The notes under the pieces are model-generated. The model was not told the origin of the DNA and ran no database searches. It saw only the letters and a program-made list of their open reading frames with translations. A DNA stretch of 64,000 nucleotides from Rhizobium sp. CF080 (GTDB lineage: Bacteria > Pseudomonadota > Alphaproteobacteria > Rhizobiales > Rhizobiaceae): positions 310,001 to 374,000 of the forward strand of contig NZ_AKKC02000002.1 of the NCBI RefSeq assembly GCF_000282095.2, given 5' to 3'. Shown here in pieces: positions 5,853-28,705 of the stretch (position 1 is its first letter; every line of letters starts with the position of its first letter). Made by a program: the position numbers and the translations under genes.

Positions 5853-6188
5853 TTATTTCGAAGGAAGTTGAGCCGAGGCCGGCCGTCCCGCGACGGCGGC
5901 CTTGTGCTCGTTCTGCCACCGAACCGCTTCGCGCGCTTCGACGCGAGCCTGTTTGCGGTGTTTGCCCTGGCTCCACCAGGTCACGAACGAGCCGATGAAC
6001 ATCCCGATCAGCAAGGCCAGAAACAGGAACAGGAAGAAGGGTGCGCTCACCGCCAGCATGCCGTCTTCCGGCCGGAAGGGATTGAGCGCCAGGGTGACCA
6101 TCTGACGGTTCGCGACGGCGAGCACGATCAGAACGATGCCGAGCGGTACGAAGACCACGAGCGAGACGATCTTTTTGAACTTATCCAT
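5853..6188 (-). CDS. LapA-domain (DUF1049) inner-membrane protein
   Basis: This small membrane protein of 111 residues has two hydrophobic helices (about 7-26 and 47-70), then a basic, probably cytoplasmic tail. It matches the lipopolysaccharide assembly protein A domain pattern: helix 1, a short loop with NRQMVTLALNPF, then helix 2 ending in GMFIGSFVTWW. In E. coli LapA works with LapB in controlling LpxC turnover, but no lapB-like TPR gene is adjacent, so that role is only suggested. Start ATG with GGAGAT upstream. It lies downstream of ihfB on the same strand, as is common in alphaproteobacteria. Confidence 0.82.
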   Translation of the reverse strand: MDKFKKIVSLVVFVPLGIVLIVLAVANRQMVTLALNPFRPEDGMLAVSAPFFLFLFLALLIGMFIGSFVTWWSQGKHRKQARVEAREAVRWQNEHKAAVAGRPASAQLPSK

Positions 6189-6291
6189 GTGAATCTCCGG
6201 CAGCAGACTGTCTGCTGTTTTACCAGCGTCTGTTGCAGAATAGGCGCGCTTTGTGGGGTTTCAAGGGCGGCGGAAAGCCGCGCCGGAGAGA

Positions 6292-6591
6292 TCAATCTTC
6301 TTCGTCATCGAGGCCCGGGTTCAGGCGCTCTCGCAGTTCCTTGCCTGTCTTGAAGAAAGGAACCCATTTCTCCTCGACGAAAACGCTCTCACCGGTGCGC
6401 GGATTGCGACCGGACCGGGAGGGACGGTTCTTCACCGAAAACGCACCGAAGCCACGCAGTTCGACGCGATTTCCGCCTGCCAGGGCATCTGTGATCTCGT
6501 CGAGCACGGCATTGACGATGTTCTCGACGTCGCGGTGGTAGAGATGCGGATTGCGAGCCGCAACGATCTGCACCAGTTCTGACTTGATCAC
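6292..6591 (-). CDS. ihfB: Integration host factor subunit beta
   Basis: This nucleoid-associated protein pairs with IHF-alpha to bend DNA at specific sites and helps sigma-54 promoters, replication and recombination. At 99 residues it has the HU/IHF fold: N-terminal helices ([15 protein letters not shown]), the beta-arm region [12 protein letters not shown], and the arm tip with GRNPRTGE, whose proline intercalates into DNA. The start is GTG at 6591, preceded by GGGGCAACC. A short acidic C-terminal tail (LDDEED) is visible. It follows sppA by 26 bp on the same strand and is probably co-transcribed. The IHF-alpha gene is not in this window. Confidence 0.95.
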
Positions 6592-6617
6592 GGTTGCCCC
6601 CTGAAAAGTTTAGATTT

Positions 6618-7574
6618 TTAACCGCGCCCAACCTGCCAAACGGAGACAAGACCGTCAAGAAACAACTTGTCTGCGCCGAAGGCGCGAAGCGCGTCGGGAG
6701 TGAGCGCCTGGCCGAAACCGGAGAGCTTGAAGAACTCGCTGACAGCGCTCGCGAACCAGAAGGACGAGGAGGATTTGCGTTCTTTCCAATCGACGATCGG
6801 CAGGCCTTTCGAGACGCCGCGGGATTCCAGATAATCGCGGATGTCCTCCTCGCCGCCGAGTTTGTCGACCAGCTTGACGTTGAGCGCCTGGCGACCGGTG
6901 AAGATGGTGCCGTCCGCGAGCTTCAGGACTTCGTCACGCGGCATCTTGCGGCGGTCGGCAACCAGGTCGACGAACCAAGCGTAGCTGTCCATCACCATGT
7001 TGCGGATCATCGTCTTGGCTTCTTCGCTTGCCGGATGGAAGGGCGACGGCTCGGCCTTCAGGGGCGCGGACTTTATCTCCTCGAGCGAGACGCCGATCTT
7101 CTTCATCACTTCGTCGATCTGGGGATACTGGAAGATCACGCCGATCGAGCCGGTGATCGAGCTTTCGCCCGCGACGATCTGGTCACCGGCTGTGGCGATC
7201 ATGTAGCCGGCCGACGCGGCCAGCGTGCGGATGTCGGATACGACCGGCTTCTTTTCGGAAACCTTGCGGATCGCCTTGAAGATGCGCTCGCCGCCATAGG
7301 TGGTTCCGCCCGGCGAGGAGATCGAGACGATCAGCGCCCTAGCCTGGCTGCTTTCAGCGATCCTGTCGAGGCGCACCAGCAATTCCTTGTCGTCGGTGAT
7401 CAAGCCGGAGATTTCGATGCGGGCGACATGGGGCACGGCGGATCCGGCGCTCTCGCCGGCAACGACCCGGTAAAGCGCAAATCCCATGCCAACCAGGAAA
7501 ACAAGTGCGACAACCCGCCAGAAACTCAGCTTGCGGCGCAGGGAACGCCGGTCCGCAATTGCCATTTGATCCAT
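6618..7574 (-). CDS. sppA: Signal peptide peptidase SppA (short 36K type)
   Basis: This membrane-anchored serine protease of family S49 degrades cleaved signal peptides. The 318-residue protein has one N-terminal helix (about 19-37) and a single S49 domain, like the Bacillus SppA rather than the double-domain E. coli enzyme. The nucleophile is Ser121 in LAASAGYM and the likely general base is Lys173 in APLKAEPSPF, about 52 residues later, as in Bacillus SppA. The oxyanion region SSPGGTTYGG (86-95) is intact. It precedes ihfB and is divergent from lptC across about 200 bp. Start ATG at 7574; a second in-frame ATG lies three codons in. Confidence 0.93.
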   Translation of the reverse strand: MDQMAIADRRSLRRKLSFWRVVALVFLVGMGFALYRVVAGESAGSAVPHVARIEISGLITDDKELLVRLDRIAESSQARALIVSISSPGGTTYGGERIFKAIRKVSEKKPVVSDIRTLAASAGYMIATAGDQIVAGESSITGSIGVIFQYPQIDEVMKKIGVSLEEIKSAPLKAEPSPFHPASEEAKTMIRNMVMDSYAWFVDLVADRRKMPRDEVLKLADGTIFTGRQALNVKLVDKLGGEEDIRDYLESRGVSKGLPIVDWKERKSSSSFWFASAVSEFFKLSGFGQALTPDALRAFGADKLFLDGLVSVWQVGRG

Positions 7575-7778
7575 GAAATCACCCTTCGAGATGCGCCGTC
7601 GTTGCTAAATAGGCTCTCTAGCGTGTTTTGCAGCAGCTCACATCACGTTTTTATGTTGTCCGTTATTGTTTGTTGATGAATAAAAACCATATTGGCGGAC
7701 AAAGCAAAGCTCCCACCCGTCTCATCGGTATGACGAGACGAGGACGGAGACGGGCTATTAAGGAACTATCCGGCACTC

Positions 7779-8447
7779 ATGCTGCAGCATATTCGAAAAA
7801 CGGCAGGCTTTGCAGCGGCGCTGGAGCCGCATGCGGATGCCTATCAGGCAGCGCTTGCGCATTCCGCGCTCGTGCACAAGCTCAAGATATTGCTGCCGAT
7901 CCTAGCCGGCGTGATTTCGGCCGCCTTCATCGGGATTTCGATCATCCGTGCCTACCTGCCCGAAAACCTTTCGATCGAAAACGCCCGCATCGAAAACGGC
8001 AAGATCGTCATGGAGCGGCCGGCGATATCGGGCCGCAACAAGGACGGCATCAGCTACTCGATGACCGCCAACCGCGCGCTGCAGGATATCCAGAACTCGA
8101 ACATGATCACGCTCGAGGACGTCAAGGCCGCCGTACCGGTCAATGACGACGTGATCGCGCGGGTGACTGCGACCACCGCGGATTTCGACCGTGGTGCCGA
8201 CATGCTCGATCTCAACTCCCCGTTCGATGTCAATCTGAGCAACGGGATCACCGCCCGGTTCAAGTCCGCCCATCTCGATATCAACGCGGGTGTGATGGAT
8301 TCACCCGAGCACGTCGATATATCCATGAAAGAGGGCTCTATTGTTGCAGAGTCTTTAAAGATAACGGATAAGGGACGAACCATCACCTTCAAGGGCCAGG
8401 TTCGCCTTCATCTCGACCCAGCCACCATCCGCAACCAAGGCAAGTAG
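7779..8447 (+). CDS. lptC: LPS export system periplasmic protein LptC
   Basis: LptC receives lipopolysaccharide from the LptB2FG transporter and passes it to LptA across the periplasm. The 222-residue protein has one transmembrane anchor (about 33-56) and a periplasmic beta-jellyroll domain seen as repeating short beta-rich segments (SIENARIENGKIV, ISYSMTANRAL, ITLEDVKA). It is the first gene of the lptC-lptA-lptB run, with gaps of 12 bp or less, a standard alphaproteobacterial order. Sequence conservation in this family is low, so position in the cluster is part of the evidence. The 200-bp upstream gap shared with sppA should hold both promoters. Confidence 0.9.
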   Translation: MLQHIRKTAGFAAALEPHADAYQAALAHSALVHKLKILLPILAGVISAAFIGISIIRAYLPENLSIENARIENGKIVMERPAISGRNKDGISYSMTANRALQDIQNSNMITLEDVKAAVPVNDDVIARVTATTADFDRGADMLDLNSPFDVNLSNGITARFKSAHLDINAGVMDSPEHVDISMKEGSIVAESLKITDKGRTITFKGQVRLHLDPATIRNQGK

Positions 8448-26397: not shown

Positions 26398-26510
26398 GCC
26401 GAGCGCGCCTTCGTCTAGCTCGTTGATGATGGAAACCCCTGCTTCACAGGGCTTTCCCCATATTGCAACTCTAAATCGGCCTTTATTCCGCCGAGTTCTC
26501 ATTCTCTGTT

Positions 26511-26526
26511 AAGGAATACATTCCTT
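26511..26526 (+). promoter_or_regulatory. Inverted repeat and direct repeats before the membrane/protease module
   Basis: AAGGAAT and ATTCCTT are perfect 7-bp arms around two bases. They are followed by two copies of CCTTTTGG (26523-26530 and 26537-26544), 14 bp apart, ending 24 bp before the start codon. This could be an operator; as RNA it could form a 6-bp hairpin with a TACA loop, so a weak ubiB terminator is the alternative. Confidence 0.4.
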
Positions 26527-26568
26527 TTGGGCTTGGCCTTTTGGAATTTCGCCTAACGGAGACAGTTC

Positions 26569-27942
26569 ATGGCGCTAGGCGCAACTCAACGCTTGCATGA
26601 CGGTGTCGCTGCCGTCGAGACGATGACTCGTTTCGCGCTCGCCGTGCTGGCGCTTGCTTCCGGCGTCTACACCTATCTCGGCGCACGCAGCATTCTCGAC
26701 GGGTCGCCGACAGCCGTATTCTTTGCGGCGGTCATCTACTCGGCCTCGGTCTCGGTCGGCATCTATGCCTTCTGGTCCTATATGGCGCGGTTCTATCCGC
26801 ATGTGACGACCCGTGCCGGTCGCACGGCCATGCTCGGCGTCATGGCGATCGGCGCGGCGATGATCCTTGCGATGTCGAGCTGGCTGAATGCGGCAGCACT
26901 TGCCGGCTCCGCGGCCGTCGAGCAGCATCTTTCCGAGACGGTCGAGGACTACACGGCCGATCTCGACCGCGCCCACCAGAATGCGCTCGCGGCGCAAAGC
27001 CTGCTGCCGGATATCCAGCGCGCATCCGAACGTTTCTCCCAGCTTGCAGGCGTGGAACGGCAGTCCGGCTCGCTGACCGGCACGACCGGTTCGGGCAGCG
27101 TCGTGCAGCTTCTCAGCCAGATGTCGGCGCAGATGAAGTCGCTCGCAACCGGCATCAACGCCTCGCGCGAGCAGGTGAACGACCTTTTTGCTCAAGGCCA
27201 GAAGCGGCTGGAGACGATGCGCTCTCTGGTTTCCGCACCGGGTACGATCGAGCCCCGCGCCGACCAGTTCTCCACGGAAGCCGTGGCCCTGACCGGTGTC
27301 ATCACCTCGCTGGCGCAGACTTCGATCGCGCCCTCGATCCGCCGCGCGGCGGACGACCTGTCGGTCGGGTTCATCGCGCCGGTCCCGGATGGAGGTGCTG
27401 CCGATCTCGTCAACCGCCAGAACCAGGTGATGGACACCGTCCGTACCTCGGTCACCGCACAATCCAAGGCGCTTGCCAAGGCCGCAGACGAGATCCTCGC
27501 CCGTCCGCCGGTTCAGGAACGCCGCTTCGTGCCGCTCTCGTCCGCTGAAGCCGTGCTGCATTATGCGCAGGACTTCATTCCCGCCTGGGCCGGGGCGATT
27601 TCCATCGACCTCCTGCCCGGCGTGATGGTGTTCATCCTGGCCACCGTCCATGGCGCGATCCGCCGCCAGGAGGAAGATCTGCCGTTCGCCGAACGGATCA
27701 CCGCGGCCGAACTTCTGCGGGCGCTGGACGTACACCGCGCCGTCACCGCCAGCGGCATGAACATCGAACAGGCCGTCGCCAAGACGGAACCCGGAAGCGA
27801 AATGCCGGCACCAAGGACGGGCGTGGCGGCGGAGGCGGAGACAGAGCCTGGGCCTGGTTCAGAGCCCACCCCCGAGCCGAACAACATCACCGCCATCGAC
27901 CTCAAATCACGCAGCCGGGACCGGACGCATGAGGATCGGTGA
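26569..27942 (+). CDS. Four-TM protein with a large helical extracytoplasmic domain, function unknown
   Basis: I do not recognise a named family. The 457-residue protein has three N-terminal hydrophobic helices (about 22-42, 48-72 and 86-112), a roughly 220-residue helical region (113-336) with heptad-like patterns, a fourth hydrophobic segment (about 337-360), and a charged Pro/Glu-rich tail (about 400-457). By charge bias (RxxRR after TM4 and basic residues around TM2-TM3) the helical domain most likely faces the periplasm. Start ATG with an ACGGAG ribosome site. It overlaps the next gene, a ClpP-fold protease, by 14 nt, implying coupled translation and a shared complex. Similar loop plans occur in sensor or scaffold proteins, but no signalling domain is visible. 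Confidence 0.75.
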   Translation: MALGATQRLHDGVAAVETMTRFALAVLALASGVYTYLGARSILDGSPTAVFFAAVIYSASVSVGIYAFWSYMARFYPHVTTRAGRTAMLGVMAIGAAMILAMSSWLNAAALAGSAAVEQHLSETVEDYTADLDRAHQNALAAQSLLPDIQRASERFSQLAGVERQSGSLTGTTGSGSVVQLLSQMSAQMKSLATGINASREQVNDLFAQGQKRLETMRSLVSAPGTIEPRADQFSTEAVALTGVITSLAQTSIAPSIRRAADDLSVGFIAPVPDGGAADLVNRQNQVMDTVRTSVTAQSKALAKAADEILARPPVQERRFVPLSSAEAVLHYAQDFIPAWAGAISIDLLPGVMVFILATVHGAIRRQEEDLPFAERITAAELLRALDVHRAVTASGMNIEQAVAKTEPGSEMPAPRTGVAAEAETEPGPGSEPTPEPNNITAIDLKSRSRDRTHEDR

Positions 27943-28705
27943 GGCGATCAGGAGGCTCGATGAGGGCGTGCTGATGCGCGGCGCCTTCTACATCCTGCTC
28001 TCGGCCGCCGCGGTTTTCCTCGTCGTCGATATTCGCGACATGACGGCGATGAACGCGGCCCTGCCCGGCTTCGATCCGATGCACGAAGACCAGCCGGTGC
28101 TGCCGCCGGCCTTGACCGAGGGCGTGCCGGCAGCACCTCCGGTACAGCCCGCCAGCCCCAGGGAAGTCCTGCGCAAGCCAATGACTTTCGAGCTCACCAC
28201 AGGTGGCGTGCTGCTCGCCGAAGGGACGATCGATCCCGGCGCTACCGGCCGCTTCGCCAAGGAGATCGAGGCCCGCGGCGAATATGTGAAGACGGTAACG
28301 CTCAATTCGCCCGGCGGCTCGGTGGACGATGCGCTCGCCATGTCGAAGCTGATCCGCGACAGGAAGCTCGACACCAAGGTCGCGTCGAAAGCGCTCTGCG
28401 CCTCATCCTGCCCGGTCGTATTTGCCGGCGGCATCAGCCGTCTGGCGGAAAAGGATGCGGTGATCGGCGTGCACCAGGTGTTCAACGGAGCCAAGGACAG
28501 GCCTTCGGCAGAACAGGCTATGTCCGCCGCCCAGGCGACCACCGCGAAGGTCGCCCGGCATCTCGATCAGATGGGCATCGCCGCTGGGCTCTGGATCCAT
28601 GCGCTCGAAACACCGCCGGACCGGCTTTACTATCTGACGCCGAAGGAAATGACGGATTTCAGGCTGACGACCGAGCTGCTCGCGACGGCGAAGAAGAAAA
28701 TCTAG
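27929..28705 (+). CDS. Membrane-anchored ClpP-fold serine protease-like protein (COG3904-like)
   Basis: This 258-residue protein has one N-terminal transmembrane helix (about 16-36), a Pro-rich linker (about 52-80) and a ClpP/crotonase-type domain. The segment TLNSPGGSVDDALAMSKLI (124-142) matches the ClpP oxyanion loop. Aligning ALCASSCPVVFAGG with the ClpP active site places the nucleophile at Ser159. VIGVHQVF gives the catalytic His182, and PPDRLYYLTPKEM offers Asp231 as the third member. Cys157 and Cys161 flank the serine and could form a disulfide in the periplasm. The start overlaps the upstream membrane-protein gene by 14 nt. The stop overlaps that of the convergent MFS gene in a CTAG. 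Substrate unknown. Confidence 0.8.
   Translation: MRIGEAIRRLDEGVLMRGAFYILLSAAAVFLVVDIRDMTAMNAALPGFDPMHEDQPVLPPALTEGVPAAPPVQPASPREVLRKPMTFELTTGGVLLAEGTIDPGATGRFAKEIEARGEYVKTVTLNSPGGSVDDALAMSKLIRDRKLDTKVASKALCASSCPVVFAGGISRLAEKDAVIGVHQVFNGAKDRPSAEQAMSAAQATTAKVARHLDQMGIAAGLWIHALETPPDRLYYLTPKEMTDFRLTTELLATAKKKI

Follow-up and report, generated by a model that had tools for sequence, protein, structure and literature searches.

A pair of overlapping genes was analyzed in a 64,000-nucleotide (nt) stretch of contig NZ_AKKC02000002.1 from Rhizobium sp. CF080 (the window), whose genome is 7.05 Mb. Gene 1 (26569-27942, forward strand) encodes a protein of 457 amino acids (aa) with four transmembrane (TM) segments, and gene 2 (27929-28705, forward strand) encodes a 258-aa membrane-anchored protein with a predicted ClpP fold. 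A preliminary description of the locus proposed an undescribed module of these two genes; both open reading frames (ORFs) are real, and they overlap by 14 nt (27929-27942) as it stated. A ribosome-binding site GGAGA, recognized by direct reading, is located at 26558-26562 on the same strand, 6 nt ahead of the ATG of gene 1. Further upstream are a conserved element 1, GCCTTTATTCCGCC (26479-26492, forward strand), recognized through pattern counts in relatives, a degenerate CtrA-like box CTCA-N7-TTAA (26498-26512, forward strand), which matches the consensus at 6 of 8 positions, and a 16-base-pair (bp) inverted repeat AAGGAATACATTCCTT with 7-bp arms and a 2-nt centre (26511-26526), which had also been reported. 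The nearest named relatives are from Neorhizobium.

Protein 2 shows a single hydropathy peak at residues 14-32. Its AlphaFold2 model has a mean predicted local distance difference test score (pLDDT) of 81.4 and a predicted template modelling score of 0.69. The predicted model matches the ClpP fold in Foldseek (best E-value 7.9e-8), and VIA-align superposes it on Staphylococcus aureus ClpP with Z 15.6, 157 aligned residues and a root-mean-square deviation of 3.1 Å, placing the ClpP-fold domain at residues 88-253 (28190-28687, forward strand). Judged from the model, protein 2 consists of one anchor and a ClpP-type domain, as had been proposed, and the concern that it might fold differently from ClpP is not borne out. 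At the sequence level the matches are weak. The gathering score of Pfam PF00574 is passed marginally (21.0 vs. 20.2 bits), with a match at E ≤ 0.01 in 45 of 70 homologues, and the score for the NCBIfam ClpP equivalog TIGR00493 is below the cut-off (20.9 vs. 308.6 bits). The best NCBIfam hit is NF045542, a ClpP-related head maturation family (E 9.4e-8; 32.2 bits vs. the 120-bit cut-off), and the matches in PHROGs are ClpP-like and head-maturation proteases (best E 1.9e-11). The match to NfeD1b_N is under the gathering score (15.0 vs. 40 bits). The Pfam hits, listed to E 5 with weak ones dropped by the HMMER filters, included no S49 family, and no PADLOC match was found.

Conservation in protein 2 was analyzed in two sets that share species: A1, with the window and 22 genomes (n = 23), and A3, with the window and 69 of the 79 gene-2 sequences from the named loci (n = 70), leaving out L182 and nine near-identical sequences. 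The named loci are the best 80 of 563 confirmed relatives. R17 and D34, at the ends of the anchor, are kept in all sequences of both sets. Because this invariance is beyond what a plain anchor requires, it suggests a specific TM contact. The N-terminal TM segment and the charges indicate that protein 2 is probably anchored with its domain facing the periplasm.

Ser159 and His182 of protein 2 align with Ser98 and His123 of ClpP in phmmer and profile alignments, and the SPGG motif of ClpP is also present. The conserved positions include a C-A-S-S-C motif with Cys157, Ser159 and Cys161 (28397-28411, forward strand) and His182 (28472-28474, forward strand). S159, H182, C157, C161, S160, G129, G130, Q183 and W222 are invariant in 23/23 (A1) and 70/70 (A3). 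The two cysteines, described earlier as close to the serine, are at −2 and +2 of it. The preliminary description placed Ser159, His182 and Asp231 as in ClpP, and only the first two hold. In the alignments Asp231 falls on residue 170 of S. aureus ClpP, two before the catalytic Asp172, and Leu233 falls on residue 172 (Asp231-Arg232-Leu233, 28619-28627, forward strand); the end points of the VIA structural match agree with Leu233 at the catalytic position. Asp170 of S. aureus ClpP serves in oligomerization. Position 231 is Asp in 21/23 (A1) and 57/70 (A3). Being off by two and absent from 13 of the 70, Asp231 was rejected as the catalytic residue. Glu227 was also rejected as a substitute acid; Glu or Asp is found there in 70/70 (A3) but in 21/23 (A1), and it is thus not universal. 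The claim of a ClpP triad therefore fails, also in terms of conservation, and the alignments indicate a Ser-His site with flanking cysteines that is strongly kept. When remote relatives outside the pair are included (53 aligned rows), His is kept in 53/53 and C-x-S-x-C in 52/53, with L027 as the exception. In L028 and L029 (genomes G013 and G006), ClpP-like genes with C-x-S-x-C stand alone, in two neighbouring copies, and the contigs concerned have no match to protein 1.

Protein 1 shows four hydropathy peaks (residues 12-30, 50-68, 88-106 and 342-360), and the stretch between TM3 and TM4 (about residues 109-335; 26893-27573, forward strand) is all-helical in the AlphaFold2 prediction, both consistent with the initial proposal. 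The pLDDT of ten-residue blocks is 65-96 across residues 121-320, with dips at 171-180 and 271-280. Foldseek returned no match at E 0.001 or better. The structures matched by VIA are helical bundles of a generic kind, designed proteins scoring best (Z 13.4); they neither establish nor exclude kinship with bundles, BAR domains or McpS. No Pfam, NCBIfam or PADLOC family was above its cut-off, no stomatin family was among the Pfam and NCBIfam hits, and the single weak hit in PHROGs (E 0.012) is to a family of unknown function. The loop between TM2 and TM3 has three Lys/Arg and no Asp/Glu, and the segments flanking the helical domain (residues 107-125 and 325-341) have no Lys/Arg. Because of this charge distribution, an N-in, C-in topology is modestly favoured, in which the helical domain of protein 1 and the ClpP domain of protein 2 would both be periplasmic.

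The two genes occur together. Among 40 relatives searched, gene 1 was found in 23. These genomes also have gene 2, with an E-value no higher than 6.5e-41, and four further genomes have distant ClpP-like matches only. The pair is adjacent in 23/23, including the genome G039, where most of gene 1 is on another contig and its end lies beside gene 2. Gene 1 has no match in five of 23 other genomes of the same genus (G005, G011, G016, G020 and G023), and therefore it seems dispensable. In the order set (297 genomes), strong matches to both proteins were found in the same 58 genomes, with a cut at 149 bits for gene 2 and the next match at 96 bits. There, 57 of 59 gene-2 places are at most 324 nt downstream of gene 1; in G227 the distance is 1.8 kb, and in G234 gene 2 is on another contig. 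The G227 locus (L205, 3030-6850) has a transporter-like gene inserted on the opposite strand between gene 1 and gene 2. Weaker gene-2-like matches are common in the order set (156/297 genomes at E 0.001), and four additional genomes have weak gene-1 hits only. In the class set (289 genomes), a gene-1 match at E 0.001 was found in eight: G334, G564 and G472, outside the order, carry the adjacent pair, and four genomes have distant gene-1 relatives only, with no gene 2.

At the named loci, gene 2 is beside gene 1 in 79/80, and in L189 the contig runs out roughly 160 nt past gene 1. The earlier reservation that the two genes might usually be found apart is answered by these counts and by those from the order set. 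With gene starts, and hence overlaps, picked by script, the two genes share 14 nt at 22 loci and 4 nt at 35 (together 57/79). The rest have gaps up to 182 nt, and L182 is frameshifted. A gene fusion in L182 (Rhizobium sp. G21; 6001-8061, a 687-aa ORF) was considered and rejected: it is a frameshift artefact of that assembly, in which the reading frame shifts ahead of the junction and gene 2 also has an altered end.

Gene 1 was found in 139 plasmid records (69 Sinorhizobium, 58 Phaeobacter, 6 Ensifer and 6 others), and the pair is present in all five plasmid loci opened (two Sinorhizobium, two Phaeobacter and one Paracoccus). It is present beyond symbionts, in Hoeflea, Pseudorhizobium, Phaeobacter and Paracoccus. 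The neighbourhoods vary; the pair cluster is found in 88/91 loci and the next-largest family in 17/91. In the window the pair is flanked by genes that, from their translations, we take to be ubiB-like and MFS-like. On the Phaeobacter plasmids L227 and L228, it is beside a lytic murein transglycosylase gene and close to STAS/ATP-binding regulators. The protein distance matrices correlate (Spearman 0.77, 78 loci), which is expected for any co-inherited genes and is no proof of contact. Conservation of the pair and of the block upstream of it extends over many genera, beyond what chance would give.

The upstream block comprises about 50 nt before gene 1 that are kept in Rhizobiaceae-type loci while the flanks diverge. 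It consists of GCCTTcATTtCGCC, a short spacer, TTCTTaA-N7-TTAAG and, in a subset, the palindrome AAGGAATACATTCCTT. Upstream counts were made in 70 named loci (L114-L183, 884 kb), or 71 with the window added. A relaxed form of element 1, written by eye, was found upstream in 60/71, with six occurrences in the remaining 1.77 million positions of these loci. In the CF080 genome, GCCTTNATTYCGCC has four exact matches including the one at this locus, and 55 matches at ≤1 mismatch vs. 17 for the reversed control; the three other exact sites have no box or palindrome behind them. AAGGAATNNATTCCTT has its sole exact match in this genome here, and one other site has a single mismatch. AAGGAATACATTCCT is found upstream in 27/71 and AAGGAATNCATTCCT in 30/71. 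Of the two CCTTTTGG copies noticed earlier, both are present, but as regulatory sites they were rejected: one copy is found in two relatives, and since none of the 70 has two, the doubling looks incidental. Eleven of 35 loci from two pattern searches for a regulon were read, and the same arrangement was found at no other gene.

The box TTAA-N7-TTAA corresponds to the CtrA consensus (PMC11264516). Scored as the best match within 95 nt upstream of gene 1, it is exact in 31/70 named relatives and reaches at least 7 of 8 positions in 62/70. The latter level is reached in 4/1395 random windows of the same loci and in 44/1400 AT-matched windows, none of which is exact. The 31 exact boxes come from related loci and are not independent events. 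No such box was seen by eye in the ten most distant named loci (L184-L193), which are outside the box count, or in the Rhodobacterales plasmids. The box ends 21-30 nt ahead of the ATG in 59/71; because the ribosome-binding site lies between, a site near −10 is suggested, and this would suit repression rather than classical activation. Control by CtrA is one candidate explanation; in another, the motif is a basal promoter part or a site of another regulator that reads the palindrome. The box adjoins element 1, the palindrome overlaps the box, and in the CF080 genome the exact motif is not enriched over its control (35 vs. 38), all of which fit the latter explanation, but every one of the 31 exact matches in the 884 kb is at this promoter and none is elsewhere. 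The explanation by an element other than a CtrA site falls just short of an even chance.

An orthologous pair is present on pSymB of Sinorhizobium meliloti 1021 from 369491 onward, in a record without a gene table. In the annotated strain Ak57, in a record titled pSymA, the order is gene 1, gene 2, potassium channel, inositol monophosphatase and ATP-binding protein of an ATP-binding cassette (ABC) transporter. SMb20362 encodes an inositol-phosphate phosphatase, and FbpC1 is the product of SMb20363 (PMC3272708, PMC12542648). Because the gene order fits these two assignments, the orthologue of gene 2 is almost certainly SMb20360, and that of gene 1 would be SMb20359. SMb20360 is listed as a 243-aa, ClpP-like protein (PMC3462710), and Met19 of the 261-aa pSymB orthologue yields exactly 243 aa. 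The reported SMb20360 seems to be started 18 codons late; the conserved start (L225, 6283-7065) gives 261 aa and retains the N-terminal tail of the anchor. A reporter of SMb20360 was active in 8/13 and 13/16 nodules and not in free-living cells, the expression in nodules being called "moderate" in the abstract and "strong" in the text (PMC3462710). A tagged mutant cited there (Pobigaylo 2006, second-hand via PMC3462710) was highly competitive under salt and detergent stress. The screen of that study sought ORFs missing from non-fixing alphaproteobacteria (PMC3462710); the distribution of the pair is wider than this criterion. CtrA is very low in mature bacteroids and is mainly an activator (PMC4433202); SMb203 does not appear in the main text of that paper.

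The preliminary description called the module undescribed. This has to be toned down. A 2012 study had already recognized SMb20360 as ClpP-like and made mutants of it (PMC3462710), and Phaeobacter records label gene 2 as "ATP-dependent Clp protease proteolytic subunit"; the available portion of PMC3462710 does not treat a pair. In the open-licence literature searched, SMb20359 does not occur, and no description of such a periplasmic ClpP pair in a Gram-negative bacterium was found among the papers listed.

The pair is a plausible, largely unstudied envelope enzyme complex. Of the preliminary interpretation, a two-gene module made up of a membrane partner and a ClpP-fold protein probably exposed to the periplasm is supported, and a regulated protease that serves envelope quality control would be a candidate role for it. 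The preferred reading, given an even chance, is that the two proteins form a single inner-membrane complex comparable to SppA-SppI, with a periplasmic Ser-His ClpP-fold hydrolase and a four-TM scaffold or regulator. A physical complex is supported because R17 and D34 are invariant, the genes overlap and their co-occurrence is near-strict. Protein 2 would be a single-pass, periplasm-facing hydrolase, possibly a protease, acting via a Ser159-His182 dyad, and Cys157 and Cys161 around the serine could pair as a disulfide. Protein 1 would be its dedicated scaffold or regulator, holding and gating the enzyme through TM contacts and the periplasmic bundle, and may also act as a sensor of a signal in the envelope. 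The gene overlap would fix the protein ratio, and the conserved promoter block, perhaps with a CtrA site, could couple expression to the cell cycle or the differentiation of bacteroids.

Several observations weigh against this reading. No sequence of either set has an acid at position 233 (0/23 in A1, 0/70 in A3), and without the catalytic Asp protein 2 may be inactive. Protein 1 has no recognizable fold or family, and the segment after its TM4, with three Lys/Arg and four Asp/Glu, is not clearly positive. The score of 6 of 8 of the box in the window is met by 129/1400 AT-matched windows, and the position of the box is closer to the ATG than expected for an activating −35 site. SMb20360 disruption mutants showed normal nodulation and symbiosis (PMC3462710).

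Seven distant relatives of protein 1 have no gene 2 (L201, L202, L203 and L210-L213; hmmsearch E 1e-20 to 1e-64). They raise the possibility, which is considered on the unlikely side, that protein 1 is a general membrane platform for differing single-anchor periplasmic proteins and that the partner sets the function. In four of them (L201, 5275-7025; L203, 1414-3050; L202, 3756-6084; L212, 1029-3381) the gene that follows encodes a protein with a single TM segment and no likeness to ClpP, with an overlap of 4 nt in L201 and L203. The product in L212 has an HExxH motif and a sub-threshold match to Peptidase_M48 (17.7 vs. 20.3 bits). L201 is close to a type IV secretion system coupling-protein gene (92.1 bits), L202 is near one by eye, and L201 and L212 are near resolvase-like genes, also by eye. 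However, the arrangement is limited to four of the seven: the next gene of L213 encodes a multi-TM protein, a partner of this kind was not seen for L210, and L211 lies at the edge of its contig. The gene starts, and hence the overlaps, are also uncertain in L202 and L212.

Returning to the two-protein enzyme complex, the loss of the catalytic Asp also allows protein 2 to be considered a pseudo-protease, that is, a module for binding or assembly that has the ClpP fold but lacks hydrolase activity, and the pair a structural or sensory membrane complex. The position of the catalytic Asp is Leu in 69/70 (one X) and 22/23 (one Ile), and residues 231-233 include no acid in 13/70 (A3) and 2/23 (A1). 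Across the wider C-x-S-x-C relatives aligned, residue 231 varies widely and 233 is hydrophobic. On the other hand, Ser159, His182 and the Gly-Gly are invariant in all aligned homologues of the pair, which would be surprising in a protein that had given up catalysis. Listeria ClpP1 is a known ClpP-type subunit in which the third catalytic residue is altered, and the structure matches of protein 2 include an entry "ClpP1 N165D mutant". Loss of the hydrolase activity is judged unlikely, somewhat more so than the general platform.

A broader proposal combines several of these elements, and it is held to be improbable. Protein 1 would represent a family of four-TM platforms translationally coupled to swappable single-anchor periplasmic enzymes: a Cys-flanked Ser-His ClpP-fold hydrolase in the chromosomal or large-plasmid form, and, in forms located near conjugation or resolvase genes, a putative metalloprotease with HExxH or other small proteins with an anchor. 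One form would be tied to CtrA and released in bacteroids. If true, the platform family would amount to a modular system of periplasmic enzymes in Alphaproteobacteria.

Least probable is a symbiosis or bacteroid factor that CtrA represses in free-living cells and that comes on as CtrA drops in the nodule: the nodule-active reporter, silent in free-living cells (PMC3462710), the very low CtrA of mature bacteroids (PMC4433202) and the CtrA-like box suggest, as an idea only, possible de-repression when CtrA falls, but disruption mutants nodulate normally, the non-symbionts Hoeflea, Pseudorhizobium, Phaeobacter and Paracoccus carry the pair, and CtrA is mainly an activator.

Controlled proteolysis facing the periplasm is understood in few systems. 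The proposed enzyme complex is conserved as a gene pair in many Rhizobiaceae and some Rhodobacterales, and its S. meliloti orthologue is tractable. It offers concrete predictions: a Ser-His site that lacks the Asp, a redox switch that Cys157 and Cys161 may form, a regulator with four TM segments, and a promoter possibly answering to CtrA, the master regulator of the cell cycle, of which bacteroids have almost none.

Among known systems, protein 2 shares with ClpP (S14) the predicted fold, the Ser and His positions and the SPGG motif, and differs in being anchored and probably periplasm-facing, with Leu for the catalytic Asp and a Cys on each side of the Ser; a partner of the AAA+ type in the periplasm is improbable. 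NfeD1b and the other stomatin-associated proteases are membrane serine proteases of a ClpP-like fold with a membrane partner. Protein 2 is likewise ClpP-fold and membrane-bound with a membrane partner, but its NfeD1b_N score is below the cut-off and the protein 1 hits include no stomatin family. The phage head maturation proteases are close in profile searches, through NF045542 as the best NCBIfam hit and the matching PHROG families. Protein 2 is, however, sub-cut-off, chromosomal and anchored, with no capsid genes beside it in the window. SppA is of the ClpP/crotonase type and has a Ser-Lys dyad. As a member of S49, it is distinct from protein 2, which matches PF00574 and no S49 family. SMb20360, the inferred orthologue of protein 2, shares the gene order, the ClpP-like assignment and the 243 aa from Met19, but is treated as a single nodule-expressed ORF in PMC3462710, whose available portion does not mention the partner, the anchor, the missing Asp or the promoter. 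By analogy, the closest functional precedent is SppA-SppI of Bacillus subtilis, an operon whose products form a membrane complex in which the partner SppI inhibits the protease SppA (PMC7568657). The two-gene arrangement of an anchored ClpP-type enzyme and a membrane partner is alike in both systems, and the partner gene comes first in the rhizobial pair.

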